Of a stretch of DNA of 64,000 nt, positions 54,846 to 64,000 are shown piece by piece. The notes under the pieces are model-generated. The model did no database searches. It was not told the DNA's origin and saw only the letters and a list, made by a program, of their open reading frames with translations. The first letter of the stretch is position 1, and each line of letters begins with the position of its first letter. Both the position numbers and the translations under genes were made by a program. This stretch comes from Idiomarina sp. (GTDB taxonomy: Bacteria > Pseudomonadota > Gammaproteobacteria > Enterobacterales > Alteromonadaceae). The stretch lies in the NCBI GenBank assembly GCA_020831965.1, contig JAFIFP010000001.1, positions 62,001 to 126,000 of the forward strand. Reading direction: 5' to 3'.

Positions 54846-56201
54846 ATGTCTATGATTGATTTGAAAGTGGCTATCGAAATGCAGCTGATTAGCTCTGAGC
54901 CGAGCGAGTGGTTAGACGTGGTGCGAACTAATCAGGCAGTCGATATTGCCGAAGAGCTGACCGCTTACGCACCGCAGCAAATTGCGGAGCTGTTGACGAA
55001 ACTTCCGGAAGCAGAGTTTGCTCAGCTATTCGGTTACTTTGAAGCGCCCTTGCAAGACGAAATTCTCAAATGTCTTAAGCAAGATGAGCAGTTGGTTCTG
55101 TTTAAGGCACTTGCTCGCGATGAGCGTGTCGACGTGTATCAACGGTTGAGTGAAGGTGAACAGAAAGAACTGTTGCCAAAGCTCGCGAAGAAAGAGCGTG
55201 AAGATATCCTGAAGTTAGCGGCCTATGAAGAGGGTACCGCAGGTGCCTTGGCAACTTCTGCTTATGTGTCTATTCCCGCCACCTTGACGGTGGGGCAGGC
55301 GCTCTCTTTCGTCCGGCAAAATGCCGAGACGATGGAAACTATTTATCAGGTATTTGTGGTCGATGATTTACATCGCCTGATTGGCACTTGCTCATTGCGC
55401 CGGTTGCTTACGAGTGATGACAAAACGCCAGTGACAGAAGTGATGCGGACTGACGTTGTCACGGTAAAAGCAGAAGAACCACAGCAGGCAGCAGCCGATG
55501 TGATTCGTCGCTATGACTTGATTGCGGTGCCTGTGACCAATGGTGGCGATAAGCTTATCGGGATTGTCACGGTCGATGACGCGATGGATGTGGACGAAGA
55601 AGAGGCCACAGAAGACTTCCATAAAGGGGGTGGTACGCTCGCGTTAAAAGATCTCTCGATCAAAGATGCAAGCACCTTCACAATGTATCGCAAGCGGGTG
55701 TTCTGGCTCGTGTTGTTGGTCTTCGGGAACATCTTCTCGGGTGCTGGAATCGCGTACTTTGAGGACACTATTCTTGCATATGTGGCTCTCGTCTTCTTCT
55801 TACCACTGTTGGTTGATAGTGGCGGTAACGCCGGCGCTCAAGCTTCAACCTTGATGGTGCGGGCACTCGCAACCGGTGACGTGGTGATGAAAGACTGGAT
55901 GAAGATGCTGAGTCGAGAAGTCGGTGTTGCGGTGCTCTTGGGTGTCACTATGGCAGTGGCTGTATCGTCTATTGGCTTCTTCCGTGGCGGTGCGGACATC
56001 GCGTTGGTTGTTTCTTTGTCGATGGTAGTGATTGTGGTGGCAGGTAGCTTGATTGGTATGAGTTTGCCATTCTTGTTGTCGCGCATGAAGCTCGACCCAG
56101 CAACGGCAAGTGCGCCATTAATCACTTCGATTGCTGATGCGGTGGGTGTGTTGTTGTACTTCAGCATTGCAGTCACAATTCTGGGTTCACCTACTGCGTA
56201 G
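54846..56201 (+). CDS. mgtE: MgtE-family magnesium channel
   Basis: 451 residues with an AAGGAG site. The N-terminal superhelical domain (1-125) and a CBS pair (about 135-255; VYQVFVVDDLHRLIGTCS, ITVDDAMDVDEEEATEDFHK) regulate the pore. Five membrane helices follow at 280-450, including LVDSGGNAGAQASTLMVRA. MgtE is a Mg2+-gated Mg2+ channel. Complete and family-typical. No Mg-sensing leader is obvious. Confidence 0.93.
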   Translation: MSMIDLKVAIEMQLISSEPSEWLDVVRTNQAVDIAEELTAYAPQQIAELLTKLPEAEFAQLFGYFEAPLQDEILKCLKQDEQLVLFKALARDERVDVYQRLSEGEQKELLPKLAKKEREDILKLAAYEEGTAGALATSAYVSIPATLTVGQALSFVRQNAETMETIYQVFVVDDLHRLIGTCSLRRLLTSDDKTPVTEVMRTDVVTVKAEEPQQAAADVIRRYDLIAVPVTNGGDKLIGIVTVDDAMDVDEEEATEDFHKGGGTLALKDLSIKDASTFTMYRKRVFWLVLLVFGNIFSGAGIAYFEDTILAYVALVFFLPLLVDSGGNAGAQASTLMVRALATGDVVMKDWMKMLSREVGVAVLLGVTMAVAVSSIGFFRGGADIALVVSLSMVVIVVAGSLIGMSLPFLLSRMKLDPATASAPLITSIADAVGVLLYFSIAVTILGSPTA

Positions 56202-56235
56202 AGTGAGTCTGGGCTTGCAGAAGCTGCAAAATAAG

Positions 56236-56261
56236 AAGGCCTTCCCCATGGAAGGCCTTTT
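56236..56261. terminator. Bidirectional terminator between mgtE and the FecR gene
   Basis: AAGGCCTTCC (56236-56245) pairs perfectly with GGAAGGCCTT (56250-56259) around a four-base loop, with T residues on the right and A-rich sequence on the left. Confidence 0.9.
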
Positions 56262-56281
56262 CTATAAATGGGAACGACGCC

Positions 56282-59200
56282 TTAGTCGCGGATAAAGATA
56301 CCGATACCGCGCAGCAGTTCTTCGTTCTCCATTAACCAGCCTTCAATGATCGCTGCCATGGCATCCGCATTGGGTCCTGCAAACACACCTGTTAGTGCGC
56401 CGCCGCCGAGTGCACCAGTGCCCTCTAAGTCGATGGTGTAGTTATAAAATAGCTCCATGAGATCTGCACCATTGGCAAAGAGACTCGAGCCGTCTAGGAA
56501 GTTGATGAGCAAGTCGAAGTTGTTGTCATCAAAGTTAACGGTGAGGAAGCCATCGTCGAACCCAAGGAAAGTCTCTGAAGTTGAGTTGAATATTCCATAG
56601 CCATCAGCATCAAGCGAGTAACTCAAGGAGCTATGGGTTTGACCCAAAGTGTCAAACTCAGCCTGAGTAGTGACGCGTTCAACCATCAGGAAGTGATAGT
56701 CACTTGAGTTATCAAGTTCTTCGATGGGAGCGCCTGAACCTGGGTAGTAGGTCATAGTGTAAGACCCTGCTTCCCAGTAACCCCAGTTGATCGCGCTGCC
56801 GCCTTGGCCATGGTCGATCATGTAGGAACCCAAGCCATTCAATAAATCGAAGGGTTCGCCGTTGTAGGTGACCGTGTACATGGAGTCACTATGTGCTGCT
56901 AATTGTGGGAAGCCAAAATCAGGGAAGTCTTCCGAGAAGAAATAAAACACTGTGTCGTCTTGACCATAAGTGAAGATGGGTCCCCAATTTAGGGCGTTGT
57001 TACGCCCCATGACGAGCAGTGTATCCGCATCCCAGAGCTCAGACAGTAGCATTTCTTCTACATCAAGCCCGAAGTCAGGCGTTTCGAAGTCACAGTTGCC
57101 GTCAAGGGAGCAGCGAATGAAATAGTAGAGTCCATATCCTTGAGCCAACTCCTCGTCATCCCACAGACTGACAAATAAACCGCCTAGGATGGCCTGGAAG
57201 AAAGTTTCAATGTCACCTTCTTCGTTACCCACCAGGCTACCGTAGAAGCGAGCAAAATCCAGAATGCTCTCCGGCTCGGTGGCCGTTAGATCGATATAAC
57301 CTCTCAGCAGAGCAAGCAATGAATCCACACCGAAGAGCCCGCCCAGATAACCCTCATAGTCGTATGAAAGATTAATAATGACTTCTTCTGACGTACTCTC
57401 AGCCAATGGATCCAAAATAATGAAGCTCTGAGGAAGTAAGAAAAAGCTCGCTCCATTATTCATGAACATACCTGGACCACCACCAAGCTGGAAGATAAGC
57501 TCCTGCTCATAATTATTCCGCAACACATTGCCAGCGGATATCCAATCGAAGAGCGATGTGGCGGTGAGGTAAGGCATGTAGCGGGTATTGTCGAGCTCCT
57601 CGTCGAAGTAGTTCCGAATACTGTAGCTTTCTGGTCCCCAAACGCCCCAGTAGATTTGAATGTCTGAACCGGAGAAGTATTCCCCTAAGTCCAAGCCGGC
57701 TGTAAAGAGCGGTTCCATTTCACTGTAAGCAGAGAAATTGAACATACCGGTATACACATAGGTCGGTGCCTCGTAGCCATTAAACTCGGTAACAATGACG
57801 CTGCCTTCGTCGCTAAGTTGCGCAAAGTTGCGGTCTAACATGCCGCCCGTGCTTAAATTCGCGCCGGGTAATAAAGGTAGATCGCTGAAGCTACAGTTTG
57901 GATCTAAGTAACAGTGGACAAAGGCCAGTGTGCCGTAGGCCATATAACTGTCGTCACCGTCGTTGAGTAGCATGAAAATACCGGCAATCAAGCCATCGAT
58001 AAAGGAGCCTCCGATGCTATCGTTGGTGCCATTATTGATACCAGTGAATGCCCCGACGAGGCGGGCTAACTCAATGATAGGGTCATTGCCAGTTTCGGAG
58101 AGTTCGATAAAGAGGTCGTATAAATCGGCAACACTTCCGGAGCCGATTAGCTCGCGAATCAGTGCGCTTTCGTCTCCCGAGTAGCTGAAGTTCAACAGCA
58201 CCATCAGGCTATTGTCGTCGAGATCGATCTCAATACGGCTCGTCGGCAACCACTGAATCGACTCTTCGTTACCGAAAAACAGCTTGGAACCTCCCACATA
58301 GCGGAAGGACATAGTGCCCTCGTATTGGCCGAGGACGTTTTCAGCGAAACTACTTGTGCCAAAGCCGCTCGTCGCGAAAGCCCAATGGAAGGGGGGCTCT
58401 GGGCTATCTAAAGGCGTGGTTAAGTCCACATCATCGCCATCAAAGAACGAATAACTACCGCCATCCCAACTGCCCCACTGCATCATATTCCAGCGCGATG
58501 GAAGGTGAATAGCCCCAAGATTAAAGCTACTGAAGTCAAATGACTGAGCATCCGAGTCTCGGGCGACGGTAATATCGCCTTCACGAGTGAACCGGTAAGC
58601 GTCTACTGCATACGAACCATTAGAAAGACCGGTAATTCCTGTCCAACCGGTAAAGGTTGAGCCTAAGGTGTAGCCATAAGATGTGATTCCACGCTCGGCC
58701 ATGAGCTCCACTTCAGGCTGCTCAGGAGACGGTAACGCACAAGTCTCGCCCATCCAGCAGTAGAGGAAGTAGAACAAGCCATAGCCGGTGTGCACATCTG
58801 CGCCGTCTTGCAGGGCGAGGAACAGGCCAGTGAGGAGCGCATCGATGCCATCGTTCTCATTGCCGGTAAAGGTACCAAAGAGTCTGGCGAGTTCAACAAT
58901 ACGGTCACCTGCTGTGGTTTCCTCAAGCTCAATGAAGTTGTCATAGAACTCTTCAATGGTGCCCGAACCAAACAGGGTACGCAGTACAGCCATGTCTTCG
59001 GCGCTATAGCGGAAAGCGAGCTCAAGCTCGATACCGCCGGTGTCGAGATCAACAATAATCCGACTGCCGTCATCGAGCTGCACAACCTCGCTATTGCTCA
59101 TGTGAACGCCGGTGCCACCGCCAAAGCGGAAGTGCATAAAGCGACGGTCGGCATGACGTAAATCGGTGATGTCGTAGAAGCGCTCAATACTTGCAATGGA

Positions 59201-61303
59201 CATGTCGGAGAACATGTACGGGAAGTAGTGATTACTCAAGCGTTCTGCGCCTTGATCATCGACAAGAGTATATTGCCCTGGCGCCCACAGTCCCCAATCG
59301 ATCACATTTGAAGAGAAGGGGTTGTAGCTGTTCAACGCAAAGGTGCCATAAAGTTCAGGAACCGCCGCATTGGCAATGAAGGTCATTGCCTCATTTTCAG
59401 CGCGAGTCAATACAGAGGAGCCGCCAATAAAGTTCGTTTGGAAGCTATCGAGGTTCCGATCTCGCTCTAAATAACCGCTACCGGTCAACGCAATACCTGC
59501 AGGAGGAAGTTCGCTTGGCGTTGAACCGTCGGGTAGTTCACAACTATCGCCCATCCAACAATAGAGGAAGTAGAACAAGCCGTAGCCCGCATAGGTTTCT
59601 CCACCATCATTGATAGCCATGAAGAGACCCGCGAGCAGTGCATCAATGCCCGCATCTTCATTGCCCGTAAAGGAACCAAATAGGCGCGCAACTTCGAGAA
59701 TCAGCTCACTTGAGGCGGAATGCTGGAGCTCGATGAAGCCCTTATAGAACTCTTCAATAGAGCCAGATCCCAGTAATGTGCGAAGCACAGCCATATCTTC
59801 TGCGCTATAGCGATAACCCAATTCGATGGTGATTTGGCCGGTGCTCAAATCCACAAAGACGCGACTCGAGTCACTGAGCTCAATGTATTCGCCGTGACTG
59901 AAATGAACGCCCGTGCCGCCGCCGAGTCGGAATGTCATCGTACCGTCGGCACTATGATTGGCCTCGGCAATAGCTTGGAACTCCGTTGCTGTGCCAATGG
60001 TTTGGTCTGAGAACATATAGGGGAACGGGCTTGTGTTATCCCGCTCTTCCCCATCCGCGTCGATGATCACATACTGACCACCCGACCACATTCCCCAATC
60101 GATCACGTTTGAGGAATTAGGGTTAAAGTTATTTACATTGAATGAACCATAAAGCGTTGGGATTGAGTCCGTAGCAATAAAGGTCATTTCATCAGTTTCT
60201 GCGCGAGTTAAGACGTTCGCTTGACCCACGATGTTGGTTTGGAATGTGCTCAGGTCACGAATGCGCTCAAGGTAGCCGCTACCGGTTAAGCCCACACCAG
60301 GAGCCGGCAACTCAGCAGGTTCTGGTTCTGGGTCTGGGTCAGGATCGACAGGCTCTTCTTCGTCTTCTTCTTTGATTAGTTCCTCACCTTCGTCTTCACC
60401 ACGATCTTCACCTGCCTGAGGGGGCGGAGCCACAGGTTCGTTGTCGTCTTCAGGTGGAAGTGCTGGCGGAGGCGGCGGTGGTAATGCACCAGAATCTCCG
60501 TCATCTGCAAGGTCGTCCTCATCGTCGTCAGAGGTGACAGCAGGTTGGCCATTGTCAGAGCTGTCGTCATCGTCTTCATCTTCTGAAGTCGCGACCACAC
60601 CATTGTCACTACCCTCTTCGTCTTCTTCCTCTTCTTCTTCATTTTGCTGATTCATGTAGTCGAGAGCGTCTTCAGGTGCCGGCACAGGAGGTGTGTCTTC
60701 ATCTTCGACATAGAAAGTCTCGCCAGCGCCGACTAGAATCGAACCGGTGTTGTTGGTTAGCAATACGAAACCGTCTTCAACCTGCATATAAGTGCCGGGT
60801 GGTAAGTTGTTGAAATCAGCACTTTGCCCAGGTGGTACATGCACTATGGCAAGAACAGTCCCGCGAATACCCATGGTCGCAACGGGGGTTTGGAACTCTA
60901 CTTGTTCAGGTCGCGCGCGGCCGATGGCACCGGTGACAGCACGCAAACTTCCGCGAACTAACTGCGTGCGTTGTTCACTAGCGTCTGGATTGAGCTCGTC
61001 GAAATTGTAGCTTTCAATCAGAAAGGTCGAGTTTGGACGAATTGCGACTAAGCTGTTGTCGACAAAGCGGATTTGCGCACTTGAGGCAGCGCGCGTGGCA
61101 ACCACATCTTGTGGTATCAGGCGTGCACCTCGTGTCGCCGCCGCTGGAATGTTGTCGCGCACGAGTTCAACGGTGCCATGCACGAAGAGAATTTGCCCAG
61201 CAGTATTCTCTTCTTCCTCTGCTATGACTGAGGTACTGACGAGTGTTGTGGCGACGAGCGCCCAACTCAATAACTTCAGATTAGAAAACAGCTTAGAAAA
61301 CAT
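56282..61303 (-). CDS. Giant FecR-domain repeat protein, exported
   Basis: 1673 residues. Signal peptide (1-28); FecR-type domain (about 35-200; GQILFVHGTVELVRD, VATMGIRGT); acidic linker (about 215-335) rich in Glu/Asp and Pro; then five diverged modules of about 260-280 residues (near 336-602, 603-862, 862-1140, 1140-1410, 1410-1673). Modules share W-G-x-W-x-x-x-x-Y near the first third (five times), an R-x-G-G-(G/S) stretch in most, and an AR-L-F-G-x-F-T-G-N segment. Four also end in Y-x-x-Y/F-x-x-C-x-x-x-x-x-C. It starts with a GGGAG site and overlaps the barrel gene by 11 bp. There is no anti-sigma part, so it is not a FecR regulator. Adhesin or surface-binding role inferred. Confidence 0.8.
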   Translation of the reverse strand: MFSKLFSNLKLLSWALVATTLVSTSVIAEEEENTAGQILFVHGTVELVRDNIPAAATRGARLIPQDVVATRAASSAQIRFVDNSLVAIRPNSTFLIESYNFDELNPDASEQRTQLVRGSLRAVTGAIGRARPEQVEFQTPVATMGIRGTVLAIVHVPPGQSADFNNLPPGTYMQVEDGFVLLTNNTGSILVGAGETFYVEDEDTPPVPAPEDALDYMNQQNEEEEEEDEEGSDNGVVATSEDEDDDDSSDNGQPAVTSDDDEDDLADDGDSGALPPPPPPALPPEDDNEPVAPPPQAGEDRGEDEGEELIKEEDEEEPVDPDPDPEPEPAELPAPGVGLTGSGYLERIRDLSTFQTNIVGQANVLTRAETDEMTFIATDSIPTLYGSFNVNNFNPNSSNVIDWGMWSGGQYVIIDADGEERDNTSPFPYMFSDQTIGTATEFQAIAEANHSADGTMTFRLGGGTGVHFSHGEYIELSDSSRVFVDLSTGQITIELGYRYSAEDMAVLRTLLGSGSIEEFYKGFIELQHSASSELILEVARLFGSFTGNEDAGIDALLAGLFMAINDGGETYAGYGLFYFLYCWMGDSCELPDGSTPSELPPAGIALTGSGYLERDRNLDSFQTNFIGGSSVLTRAENEAMTFIANAAVPELYGTFALNSYNPFSSNVIDWGLWAPGQYTLVDDQGAERLSNHYFPYMFSDMSIASIERFYDITDLRHADRRFMHFRFGGGTGVHMSNSEVVQLDDGSRIIVDLDTGGIELELAFRYSAEDMAVLRTLFGSGTIEEFYDNFIELEETTAGDRIVELARLFGTFTGNENDGIDALLTGLFLALQDGADVHTGYGLFYFLYCWMGETCALPSPEQPEVELMAERGITSYGYTLGSTFTGWTGITGLSNGSYAVDAYRFTREGDITVARDSDAQSFDFSSFNLGAIHLPSRWNMMQWGSWDGGSYSFFDGDDVDLTTPLDSPEPPFHWAFATSGFGTSSFAENVLGQYEGTMSFRYVGGSKLFFGNEESIQWLPTSRIEIDLDDNSLMVLLNFSYSGDESALIRELIGSGSVADLYDLFIELSETGNDPIIELARLVGAFTGINNGTNDSIGGSFIDGLIAGIFMLLNDGDDSYMAYGTLAFVHCYLDPNCSFSDLPLLPGANLSTGGMLDRNFAQLSDEGSVIVTEFNGYEAPTYVYTGMFNFSAYSEMEPLFTAGLDLGEYFSGSDIQIYWGVWGPESYSIRNYFDEELDNTRYMPYLTATSLFDWISAGNVLRNNYEQELIFQLGGGPGMFMNNGASFFLLPQSFIILDPLAESTSEEVIINLSYDYEGYLGGLFGVDSLLALLRGYIDLTATEPESILDFARFYGSLVGNEEGDIETFFQAILGGLFVSLWDDEELAQGYGLYYFIRCSLDGNCDFETPDFGLDVEEMLLSELWDADTLLVMGRNNALNWGPIFTYGQDDTVFYFFSEDFPDFGFPQLAAHSDSMYTVTYNGEPFDLLNGLGSYMIDHGQGGSAINWGYWEAGSYTMTYYPGSGAPIEELDNSSDYHFLMVERVTTQAEFDTLGQTHSSLSYSLDADGYGIFNSTSETFLGFDDGFLTVNFDDNNFDLLINFLDGSSLFANGADLMELFYNYTIDLEGTGALGGGALTGVFAGPNADAMAAIIEGWLMENEELLRGIGIFIRD

Positions 61304-62657
61304 AAGTCACACTCCCTTGGACCAGCGTCTGATCGAGTTCGAAGAAGTCGATCGATGAAGTTTGTTCGCGATATTGCCCAAAGAGGCTAAAGCGCCAATG
61401 AGGGGTGGGCTGGAAAATCCATTCCAGTCGTGCTCGCAGACTGTCGTCATCACGAATTTCTGGTTGTCCCAAGTTAAATATTGAGAAGGCCGCTTGGTCA
61501 TAGCGGTGGTTCTCGTAGCCAATCATCGTTTGAATTTGGTTACGCATACCGAGCTGGAAATCTGCATGACCGGTGACAAATAACCGATCGGAGTCACCCC
61601 CTTGACGGGTTGGGTCACGCGTCACACGCTCGGCATCAAATCCTGTGCGTCCGCGCAAGCGCACAACATTATTCAGTTGGAGACGATATTCGAGATCACC
61701 ACCCCAGGAGACATAGTCATTCCGGCGGCGGTCGAAGCGGAAATCCCGGAAATGCGTATTTACGTGAAGCTCACCACGTTCACCGAGAGGCTGACGGTAA
61801 CCCAAGTTCAGTCCGGTGTGATGACGATAGCGTTCGTTATCAAGCCAGAGCTGGGCGGCCTCAAAGCCAAAGCGCAATTCCCTTTGACCACTAAAGCGAG
61901 TGCCCGCAGTCGCCATACCGTGAATAACGTGAGTATCGAAGATGCTGGCGTCGCTATTGTGATTTTTCCGGCTTTGGCCCATTAAGCTGGTTTCAAGGTA
62001 ACCGCTATCGCTGCCGAAACGTCGCCACCACATGGCTCGAGCCGTTGTATAAGTTGTATCATCGGCCTCGAGAATTGCGATGCCTTGTAGAATGGTATTG
62101 GCGAATAGGTCAAAGCTGTCTGGGTAATTGAGATAGTTGCTGTCGTAGCCAAAATCTAAACCAAACATGAAGATTTGTGGCACTTGCTGGTCGCCCGCAC
62201 GGCGCGCGGCAATGGCATCACGCAGCCGGAACATCGCTTCTTGGGCGCGTGGCGGAGGATTCAACCCTTCGAGGAAGTCTAACTGACGCTCTGCAGCGTC
62301 GAGGCGATTCAGCCGCAGGTAAACCCCGGCCAATTCAAGGCGTGCGCCCGCATGGGTGGGTTGCTGAGTAATGACTCGCTCCAATGCTAGCGAGGACTCA
62401 AAGGGGCGGTCTGCTCGGAGTGCGGCAACACCGTACCAATAATCAAACCGAACGGAGCCGGAATGCTCATTCTCGTAGCGGAGAAAGAGATCGTAGGCTT
62501 CTTGGTGACGGTTGGCCTGCAAGAGCTGCTGTCCCTGCTGTACCAGCTGGGAAACCGAAGGGGCAGTCGCTCCAGGGTTGGCTTGCGCATGGACAGAACC
62601 ACCCACAATGCATAGTGTGGCGAGTGCCGTGATCAATATCCTTTTCATCATTCGCAT
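61293..62657 (-). CDS. TPR plus outer-membrane barrel protein (Slam-like)
   Basis: 454 residues. Signal peptide (about 1-26), then a periplasmic TPR-like region (about 35-155; QLVQQGQQLLQANRHQEAYD, ARLELAGVYLRLNRLDAAERQL), then a beta-barrel from about 165 to the C-terminal Phe. This is the layout of surface lipoprotein assembly modifiers (DUF560, Slam), which move certain proteins across the outer membrane. I did not align it to a Slam, so the family call is tentative. It lies between an unknown exported protein gene and the FecR giant in one operon. Confidence 0.65.
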   Translation of the reverse strand: MRMMKRILITALATLCIVGGSVHAQANPGATAPSVSQLVQQGQQLLQANRHQEAYDLFLRYENEHSGSVRFDYWYGVAALRADRPFESSLALERVITQQPTHAGARLELAGVYLRLNRLDAAERQLDFLEGLNPPPRAQEAMFRLRDAIAARRAGDQQVPQIFMFGLDFGYDSNYLNYPDSFDLFANTILQGIAILEADDTTYTTARAMWWRRFGSDSGYLETSLMGQSRKNHNSDASIFDTHVIHGMATAGTRFSGQRELRFGFEAAQLWLDNERYRHHTGLNLGYRQPLGERGELHVNTHFRDFRFDRRRNDYVSWGGDLEYRLQLNNVVRLRGRTGFDAERVTRDPTRQGGDSDRLFVTGHADFQLGMRNQIQTMIGYENHRYDQAAFSIFNLGQPEIRDDDSLRARLEWIFQPTPHWRFSLFGQYREQTSSIDFFELDQTLVQGSVTYVF

Positions 62658-62661
62658 TATC

Positions 62662-64000
62662 TCAGTTGTGTTCCATGGTTATTAAATCTGCATGTGTACT
62701 TGGCAATACTCTGAGGTACTGTTGCGACTGCATGCCGAGTTCTTGTATCGGAATTTCGCTTAAGTCGGTGATACGCCAACTCATAAAGCGGGGTTGAATC
62801 TGCAGGAATGGCACAACAGGCTCTGTTTGCCCAATGAAAGACGAGGGACCAATGTTCATTTCAATACCATAAACAATCTCGTCCGTTAGCATTAACAGCG
62901 GTCTGATTCGTCGCTCAAGACACGGGCCTGAGTCTGGGCATGGAGCGCTTGTAACACGTTCCATACGAATCTCTGAATCGATCACTTCCCAACTGAAAGT
63001 GTCTGTTACATTGGGGCGTTTTCTAAAATCGCCGCGGCAAACGAATATGTCTGCGGGAGCACCATCACAAGTGAACTGTGGTAGGACGCCTGTACCATCG
63101 TCAAAAAATTGCCAACCAAACCAGCCAAAAGGACGCGGCTCCAACCCATCCCAAGTTTCGATGTTGGCGTTGACCGTGGCATGTAGCATAAGTCCGCTGT
63201 CTACCATTTCAATCACATCTTCCGCAGTAATAGTTGCTTCAGGAATGGCACCACCAGGATTGACTCGAGCGTGGAACTCATCGAAGCCATTCGTGTATTC
63301 CATATACATGTTTTCCATGCCCGGTGTATCGTCAAGGATAAAGTAGTCAGCCTGATTCACTAAGGTGTCGTCCGGCATACGTAGCGTGAGCCGCAGTCGT
63401 TCGTCGTCATCATGGAGTGCCCAGGTGAGCTGCCAATCTAAATTTGTGACAAAGAACGCAGCACCGAACTCTTCCAGAAGATCATCGTTCGCAAAGCTCA
63501 CTGTGCCGTCACTTTCCAAGGTCACTTGATGGGAAATGAAATATCCGAGTACGTCGGGCAAGATTAAATCGCGTGCAGTCACATCGTTGAAGGGGATGAA
63601 CTCGCTTACCTCGCTTTCAGCGTTCACTAAGCGCAAGTTGACGATAGCAACGTAGCTATAATCAGGCACAGTAAAGCTACCAAAGTCATCCGTAATGGTG
63701 AACTCGGGCACCTCCATCTGTGAAACTTCTCGGAGCATCAGGCGATCGCCATAGCGTGAAATAACCCGGAACTCTTGTAGTTGCGCGTTGACGGTGCGCT
63801 GCGTTGAATAGTTTTCGCCAAAACGCTCAATGAAATTGGCACGAATTTGCGGGTCTGCAATGTGGCGGCCTGGCGTGACCGTCAATTGGAGCGGTACGGC
63901 GATCGAATTCGTAATCTCAATGATAGAACCTTCGAGGTTCCAGTCGTAATTTGCATTGTTAAAGCGTCCACGTGTTTCAGGAGTATCGATAGCACCGGTC
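62662..64000 (-). CDS. Large unknown exported protein, cut by window edge
   Basis: The frame is open from the stop at 62662 to the last base, so the 407 residues from a TTG at 63885 are only part. Upstream residues, for example YDWNLEGSIIEITNS, continue without a break and the N-terminus is missing. The visible portion is beta-rich and acidic, with repeated W/F motifs and several Cys (about 278-325). The FecR and barrel genes follow (4-bp gap), so all are probably in one transcript. I recognise no family. Confidence 0.6.
   Translation of the reverse strand, partial: TGAIDTPETRGRFNNANYDWNLEGSIIEITNSIAVPLQLTVTPGRHIADPQIRANFIERFGENYSTQRTVNAQLQEFRVISRYGDRLMLREVSQMEVPEFTITDDFGSFTVPDYSYVAIVNLRLVNAESEVSEFIPFNDVTARDLILPDVLGYFISHQVTLESDGTVSFANDDLLEEFGAAFFVTNLDWQLTWALHDDDERLRLTLRMPDDTLVNQADYFILDDTPGMENMYMEYTNGFDEFHARVNPGGAIPEATITAEDVIEMVDSGLMLHATVNANIETWDGLEPRPFGWFGWQFFDDGTGVLPQFTCDGAPADIFVCRGDFRKRPNVTDTFSWEVIDSEIRMERVTSAPCPDSGPCLERRIRPLLMLTDEIVYGIEMNIGPSSFIGQTEPVVPFLQIQPRFMSWRITDLSEIPIQELGMQSQQYLRVLPSTHADLITMEHN

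Follow-up and report, generated by a model that had tools for sequence, protein, structure and literature searches.

A FecR-headed, five-lobe protein and its upstream barrel gene as a probable type 11 secretion-like pair in Idiomarina

We investigated two adjoining genes in a 64,000-nucleotide stretch of an Idiomarina sp. assembly (GCA_020831965.1, contig JAFIFP010000001.1, positions 62,001 to 126,000; hereafter, the window). One encodes a 1673-residue protein with an N-terminal FecR domain and five repeated modules, and the other, directly upstream, encodes a protein with tetratricopeptide repeats (TPR) and a predicted barrel. It is probable that the pair works like a cargo of the type 11 secretion system (T11SS) with its exporter, the cargo being FecR-headed, unlipidated, and multi-lobed, and the upstream gene (hereafter, the partner) is best read as a distant relative of the T11SS (Slam/DUF560/SlipAM) outer-membrane proteins. 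The initial annotation had called the protein undescribed. No Pfam name applies to the five modules and we found no paper on a FecR-headed T11SS cargo, but the fold is known and multi-lobe cargo has already been predicted. The handle-barrel fold and cargo of two to three lobes are known; an open-access search of the T11SS literature gave no mention of a FecR head, of more lobes than that, or of wide pairing with FecR. The features of the pair are as follows.

61293..62657, minus strand: partner gene, 454 residues, with a signal peptide (by eye), TPR at about residues 35-156, a predicted 14-strand barrel at residues 161-454, and a C-terminal Phe
56282..61303, minus strand: cargo gene, 1673 residues, with signal peptide, FecR domain, acidic linker, and five predicted handle-barrel modules
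61220..61303, minus strand: Sec-type signal peptide, residues 1-28, ending ...SVIA before EEEE (by eye)
60845..61108, minus strand: FecR domain, residues 66-153 (PF04773, E = 1.8e-9)
60299..60703, minus strand: acidic Pro/Asp/Glu linker, residues 201-335 (by composition)
59513..60298, minus strand: module M1 (type a), residues 336-597 (self-comparison; modelled)
58712..59500, minus strand: module M2 (type a), residues 602-864 (self-comparison and hidden Markov model, HMM)
57875..58702, minus strand: module M3 (type a), residues 868-1143 (self-comparison and HMM)
57068..57868, minus strand: module M4 (type a), residues 1146-1412 (self-comparison and HMM)
56285..57067, minus strand: module M5 (type b, C-terminal, without cysteine), residues 1413-1673 (self-comparison and tree)
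59540..59560, minus strand: C-x5-C of M1, residues 582-588
58739..58759, minus strand: C-x5-C of M2, residues 849-855
57893..57913, minus strand: C-x5-C of M3, residues 1131-1137
57092..57112, minus strand: C-x5-C of M4, residues 1398-1404

The initial annotation had described a FecR domain lacking any anti-sigma part, an acidic linker, and five modules of falling similarity in this open reading frame, and this anatomy held. The FecR domain begins after the signal peptide and about 40 further residues. It was the only match in a Pfam scan of the whole protein, which revealed no anti-sigma part, and a PHROGs search likewise matched the FecR region alone (E = 1.5e-5). The linker ahead of the modules contains 28 D, 28 E, and 25 P in 135 residues. 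Each module is approximately 260 residues long and carries one W-G-x-W-x4-Y motif, starting at residues 403, 670, 943, 1219, and 1507. Identity to M1 decreases along the chain (M2, 58%; M3, 34%; M4, 29%; M5, 24%), and all ten module pairs scored above 200 shuffles each (z = 5.3 to 131.5), the weakest being M4-M5 with a score of 83 against a shuffle maximum of 77. The other motifs assigned to all five modules were less uniform: exact R-x-G-G and AR-L-F-G-x-F-T-G-N occur in M1 and M2 only, with the variants FRYVGG and ARLVGAFTG in M3 and FQLGGG and ARFYGSLVGN in M4, and the module end Y-G-x3-F-x-x-C is present in M1-M4 and missing from M5. All eight cysteines of the protein lie in the four C-x5-C pairs that end M1-M4. 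As the earliest of them is residue 582, there is no lipobox, and the protein is therefore not a lipoprotein. Judged by sequence, M5 represents a second module type (b) next to type a of M1-M4.

M1 was modelled by AlphaFold2 on an alignment of 24 modules (A5), and the best model had a mean predicted local distance difference test (pLDDT) value of 91.0 and a predicted template modelling (pTM) score of 0.89. In a Foldseek search against the PDB, the sole match at E <= 0.001 was the C-lobe of TbpB (5kkx, E = 8.0e-4). A VIA search gave a consistent set of families: among the matches listed, 47 of 50 were NHBA, fHbp (with chimeras), TbpB, LbpB, PmSLP, and HpuA, including entries 3hoe and LP2086, which we take to belong to these families, and the rows are partly redundant, many entries coming from the same few proteins. 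The TbpB C-lobe 5kkx_B aligned over model positions 1-249 (Z = 9.1, root-mean-square deviation 4.3, 187 aligned residues). Because the VIA families are consistent and the fit to the TbpB C-lobe is full-length, the best matches point to M1 being a handle-barrel lobe as in the TbpB, fHbp, and haemophilin surface cargo. An unknown fold was rejected on the Foldseek and VIA matches. M5 is homologous to M1-M4 by HMM, and the fold prediction rests on M1. Known proteins with lobes of this kind bind iron or immune factors at the cell surface. HpuA and NHBA are Slam-dependent proteins. Slam dependence is also given for PmSLP in the title of PDB entry 9b3e, and for TbpB, LbpB, and fHbp in the available portion of PMC12282271.

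The other three VIA rows listed were a designed transmembrane barrel, a Legionella porin, and PagL. The first and last of these (Z = 9.3 and 8.2, respectively) would suit modules that are membrane-embedded 8-strand barrels, making the cargo a multi-barrel outer-membrane protein. We give this reading almost no weight, as the alignment with TbpB lobes (model positions 1-249) takes in the strands preceding the barrel, the composition is very acidic, and the cargo ends in -IRD, which is not aromatic, unlike the ...YVF of the partner.

Sequence comparison connected the modules to other FecR proteins. The module profile matched a set of 13 single C-terminal domains of FecR proteins, which we call WGRW domains (A7, gathered with the domain of G135), with an hhalign value of 95.7% (E = 9e-9), whereas controls against the partner profile gave 0.05 and 0.2%. 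In the window's own genome, the module profile detected only the five window modules at E <= 0.001. The WGRW domains in turn matched haemophilin-type cargo (A9, three rows; 41.5%, E = 2.7e-4), and 3 of the 13 matched the slam_lipo model (NF041636; best E = 0.0015). The C-terminal module of Aliidiomarina celeris also matched slam_lipo (E = 4.7e-5; 23.7 bits vs. a cut-off of 80). Haemophilin-type cargo and proteins with TbpB_B_D (PF01298) matched each other with E = 1.2e-18, a value that is inflated because both alignments include the same G614 protein. The modules are likely homologous to T11SS cargo lobes, although proof by sequence falls short. Short C-terminal domains of FecR proteins in family f1 matched the WGRW domains (E = 8.5e-5, 60%), and their matches to the modules (E = 0.019) and to TbpB_B_D (E = 0.13) were not significant; their kinship is only suggested.

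Other searches with the cargo were negative or were set aside. The whole protein matched neither TbpB_B_D nor slam_lipo at E <= 1 in Pfam and NCBIfam; in NCBIfam, M1 had no slam_lipo match and M5 had no match at E <= 0.1. A PDB sequence search with the module profile gave 0 matches. Among 295 genomes of the order, the module profile matched only the window's own, which tells little about frequency because G059 and G026 were probably outside the sample. The rise of the G135 domain in an iterative HMM search (from 0.092 in round 0 to 6.7e-27 in round 2) is probably circular and was left unused, and a second match of the whole cargo in its own genome (C2, E = 0.11) appeared by eye to be a Tex-like RNA-binding protein and was taken as chance.

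The partner overlaps the start of the cargo gene by 11 bases. Its N-terminal part matched TPR_19 (E = 3.5e-7), and a model built on five sequences showed a TPR region with seven helices of at least 10 residues and one short helix, followed by 14 strands; the barrel is structurally like CymA and OmpG X-ray entries (Z = 24-26). The Slam barrel likewise has 14 strands. The partner is thus predicted to have the layout of T11SS outer-membrane proteins, namely an N-terminal TPR and a large outer-membrane barrel. For NilB, the available portion of PMC8406197 describes a barrel and a periplasmic TPR domain of ~140 residues. A profile of three close partners (A1) matched 8 of the other 294 order genomes at E <= 1e-8, including a homologue in G023 (E = 6.2e-16, model positions 27-304) that exceeded the SlipAM (PF04575) cut-off of 22 bits with 29.6 bits. 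In a Pfam scan of eight partners, two exceeded this cut-off (L015 and L006) and that of G059, with 12.8 bits, was below it. The ninth row of the wider partner profile (A2), L005, scored 13.0 bits in the genome search, likewise below. One partner homologue (G004:C16:72129-73406) contains an in-frame TGA and may be broken or misassembled.

We found that the pairing recurs in other genera. The window protein was matched in 51 of 196 family genomes, mostly over its FecR half, and the WGRW domain in 16 of 369 class genomes. The nine-row partner profile A2, run on these 67 genomes from 37 genera, matched in all 67. The partner was located directly upstream on the same strand at 50 of the 56 FecR places and in 49 of the 51 genomes (gaps, -7 to 280 bases), a count that takes in the window's own pair and the rows behind the profile, and no more than 4 kb upstream at 17 of the 20 WGRW places in 15 of the 16 genomes (gaps, 966-3748 bases). 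In the proteins read at the WGRW places, FecR lies between the partner and WGRW, and the gap of 3748 bases is that of the second of two WGRW places following one partner. In both FecR genomes without an adjoining partner (G073 and G084), a FecR-barrel gene follows a partner elsewhere in the genome, as is also the case at G091:C12. Since the genomes were picked by a FecR or WGRW match, these counts show the pairing of such genes and not their frequency. A total of 25 genes in the 67 genomes exceeded the SlipAM cut-off (two only with in-frame neighbouring pieces), 20 of which were adjacent partners; 46 of the 66 adjacent partners did not exceed it. No gene in 14 named control genomes was over this cut-off. 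Linkers of two FecR-barrel proteins (L005 1447-3183 and L008 1435-3525) consist of long simple repeats of SDE- and VEPTL/VDPTL-type and are likely variable in length.

This pairing bears on whether the protein could be a surface adhesin or stalk exported otherwise (by outer-membrane leakage, vesicles, or another secretion system), with the partner an unrelated neighbour. The repeat protein is acidic and lysine-poor (5 K in 1673 residues, isoelectric point 4.05) and its copy number varies, as would be expected of such a stalk, but of the 75 strong partner rows, 66 have a FecR or WGRW match as neighbour, and three of the other nine (neighbours read except at G756:C106, G652:C191, G694:C179, and G518:C67) lie beside a FecR-barrel gene, in genomes chosen by such matches. 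We regard such an adhesin or stalk as highly improbable.

Related arrangements were found in individual genomes. In G173, a 503-residue protein precedes a second partner homologue (E = 2.2e-32; SlipAM, 24.2 bits), and its last 117 residues matched TbpB_B_D (E = 6.5e-5, 23.9 bits vs. a cut-off of 26) and, weakly, FHBP_C (E = 0.0019). In G158, a 268-residue haemophilin-type protein (slam_lipo, 109.9 bits vs. a cut-off of 80) precedes a clear Slam (186.7 bits). In G049, the gene after the partner matched CsgG (E = 2.8e-7) and, weakly, FecR (E = 0.029), and the one after that encodes a TPR/W-G-x-W protein. The W-G-x-W domain of this protein matched the L008 WGRW domain (BLASTP, E = 0.004), and the protein had no TbpB_B_D match; the module may thus occur without a fused FecR. 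At this locus (L078 3551-8001), the TPR/W-G-x-W protein has 460 residues, the upstream weak-FecR/CsgG gene also contains TPR, and the next gene is, by eye, a caspase-like peptidase.

Several observations weigh against a T11SS-like cargo and exporter. Strict family membership by cut-offs fails for both window genes. A SlipAM search of the partner was negative at E <= 1, and the sole SlipAM match of the window genome (G000) is elsewhere and below the cut-off; the partner model is of limited quality (pLDDT 76.8, pTM 0.56), and in Foldseek it was closest to the cellulose channel BcsC (E = 5.4e-14), likewise a TPR-barrel. Regarding the modules, M1 has no Pfam match at E <= 10 and M2-M5 have none at E <= 1; slam_lipo reached only 1 of the 24 modules, and TbpB_B_D only 1 of the 24 (E = 0.056, member not identified). 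Direct hhalign comparisons of the modules with TbpB_B_D proteins (0.5%, E = 0.13) and haemophilin-type proteins (0.8%, E = 0.071) failed, and WGRW domains matched TbpB_B_D proteins with only 4.8% (E = 0.0083). In addition, only two of the five M1 models were good (pLDDT 91.0, 90.7, 69.3, 62.7, and 62.2), the Foldseek match to the TbpB C-lobe has low template modelling scores (0.37/0.41; root-mean-square deviation 9.0), and the VIA Z values among the matches listed (7.8-10.4) exceed the tool's stated background of 7-8 by a small margin. Finally, the literature covered, which includes the available portion of PMC12282271, gives two to three lobes as the maximum for known cargo.

The number of modules differs among relatives. 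Among six cargo-type proteins compared, the window protein has 5 modules, that of G059 (same genus) 8, A. celeris 6, Pseudidiomarina salinarum 4, and P. mangrovi (G026) 5, and that of Idiomarina sp. UBA6142, which ends at a contig end, at least 4. The loci of A. celeris, P. salinarum, P. mangrovi, and UBA6142 came from one partner-profile scan, in which 4 loci were confirmed among 40 candidates, and 2 of the 6 genomes listed for genus g1 matched the window protein. A tree built from 32 modules plus the G135 domain (33 rows in all; the G135 branch is long and its placement unsure) separated type a (M1-M4) from type b (M5) as two deep groups. Between the window, G059, and A. celeris, the last three modules correspond one-to-one in starred clades, and window M1 and M2 form one clade with one module each from G059 and A. 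celeris. The variation sits towards the N-terminus, in an a+b unit of which A. celeris has one copy, G059 two, and the window none.

We compared the pair with known systems. Sphingomonas and Psychrobacter have predicted multi-lobe T11SS cargo with two to three handle-barrel copies, according to the available portion of PMC12282271; there, as in TbpB, the lobes are in tandem with a T11SS-type gene nearby, and the predicted proteins have a low-complexity stretch near the N-terminus, as does the window cargo. Those proteins are often lipidated and were found by BLAST to known cargo domains, whereas the window cargo has five lobes (four to eight in relatives), no lipid cysteine, a FecR head, and no significant TbpB_B_D match. 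Haemophilin-type soluble cargo, like the window cargo by our reading, is exported, has a C-terminal barrel, and is encoded beside a Slam-type outer-membrane protein. A weak profile link runs through the WGRW domains and the A. celeris C-terminal module, but haemophilin-type cargo has a single lobe and no FecR, and the partner of the example at L081 is far over the SlipAM cut-off (186.7 bits). The T11SS/Slam/NilB outer-membrane proteins (PF04575, PF24575) share the N-terminal TPR, barrel, and adjacent barrel cargo with the window pair, but the window partner has no PF04575 match, and 20 of 66 paired homologues are over the cut-off. FecR sigma regulators have PF04773 in common with the window cargo, which differs from them in its N-terminal signal peptide, in its FecR heading a barrel protein, and in that no anti-sigma part was found. 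Leptospira Lsa33 and LipL45 models weakly matched the cargo's FecR region in NCBIfam, far below their cut-offs (21.6 vs. 420 bits and 18.4 vs. 350 bits, respectively); to our knowledge, neither protein has such modules.

In a Lysobacter operon, a sigma factor, a FecR-family regulator, a TonB-dependent transporter, a TbpB-like protein, and Slam are encoded together, with FecR as a separate regulator (PMC11233812, available portion). Apart from this case, we found no paper linking FecR with T11SS/Slam cargo in the open-access literature as far as its text was available; both TbpB and FecR occur in the accessible text of PMC2662411, and that of PMC12282271 has no word starting with "Fec". The initial annotation had also suggested a surface-binding protein; this agrees with the predicted fold and the neighbouring gene, and both surface location and binding are putative. 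The modules match a known domain in fold and probable export route, but not in ligand.

Other genes and features adjoin the pair.

62662..64000, minus strand: 3' part of an 811-residue lipoprotein-like gene (by eye; weak Big_9, E = 0.0063), whose 5' end lies beyond the window (L027 6663-9098)
56236..56259, minus strand: terminator-like hairpin directly 3' of the cargo gene (1 in 56100-56400 vs. 0.3 expected)

The lipoprotein-like gene ends 4 bases before the partner and is tied to the pair by position only; it is a possible third component. At four other loci, the FecR-barrel gene is followed by a large gene that reads, by eye, as lipoprotein-like with repeats of Ig/cadherin type (L076 4936-7500, L077 4891-7500, L079 1-2475, and L006 2-1294). 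In Pseudidiomarina and Idiomarina, the pair adjoins metal-hydrolase-like and GAF/HD-GYP genes by eye (L029 10521-15060, L041 5391-9933, and L043 7475-9825), and in P. mangrovi and P. salinarum a CHASE2-type cyclase gene is next, also by eye.

Beyond the window end, at L027 9302-10281, an extracytoplasmic function (ECF) sigma gene (Sigma70_r4_2, E = 2.6e-20) and a gene of anti-sigma type, with a weak zf-HC2 match (E = 0.0048), adjoin the pair divergently, and divergent pairs of this kind were seen by eye in G059 (L028 15860-16833) and A. celeris (L040 8702-9699). These genes possibly regulate the cargo and partner. In G084 (L077 132-1747), an apparent FecR-type anti-sigma gene and an ECF sigma gene are present at the pair. 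Such neighbours, together with BcsC as the top Foldseek match of the partner, are what one would expect if the FecR protein were a periplasmic or envelope sensor, its modules binding something in the periplasm and its FecR domain signalling, and the TPR-barrel a porin or polysaccharide channel sharing its operon. However, the FecR protein showed no anti-sigma part, no sigma pair was seen by eye at the P. salinarum and P. mangrovi pairs (open reading frames of at least 100 residues, ~6.5 kb upstream; the UBA6142 locus, listed from 250 residues up only, is uninformative on this), the lobes are predicted to fold like surface cargo, and 20 of the 66 partners are SlipAM. We consider a sensor improbable.

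In the T11SS-like reading, the cargo would leave the cytoplasm by Sec export, and its C-terminal barrel M5 (type b) would be recognised by the partner. The chain would then cross the partner barrel and the lobes would fold outside, giving a string of four disulfide-locked lobes and a terminal lobe that may bind haem, metal, a glycan, or a surface. A rather unlikely variant is that FecR acts as a periplasmic retention plug: the lobes would be exported C-terminus first, while FecR and the linker stay in the partner pore. The LapA retention module holds giant adhesins in the type I pore and offers a likeness for such a plug. A LapA-retention model in NCBIfam matched once, weakly, in the FecR region of a relative (E = 0.024), and no paper joining "retention module" with FecR was found in the open-access literature. 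If the variant held, the cargo would be tethered to the cell as a string of four to eight lobes, extendable and unlipidated, and FecR-headed barrel proteins would be a main, overlooked class of T11SS cargo outside animal-associated bacteria.

For most T11SS outer-membrane proteins, cargo is neither known nor predicted, and for marine cluster 3, cargo with below-threshold similarity has been suggested as one possibility, according to the available portion of Grossman et al. 2025 (PMC12282271). Because almost all of the 67 genomes, from 37 genera, have FecR-barrel genes located behind T11SS-like ones, the FecR-barrel family is a concrete and testable candidate for part of this cargo gap; membership of the partners in cluster 3 is not implied. 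The natural lobe number of four to eight allows testing how much cargo this pore can export. If the T11SS-like reading is true, the FecR domain, usually read as a mark of iron signalling, would also have a place as the head domain of exported proteins.

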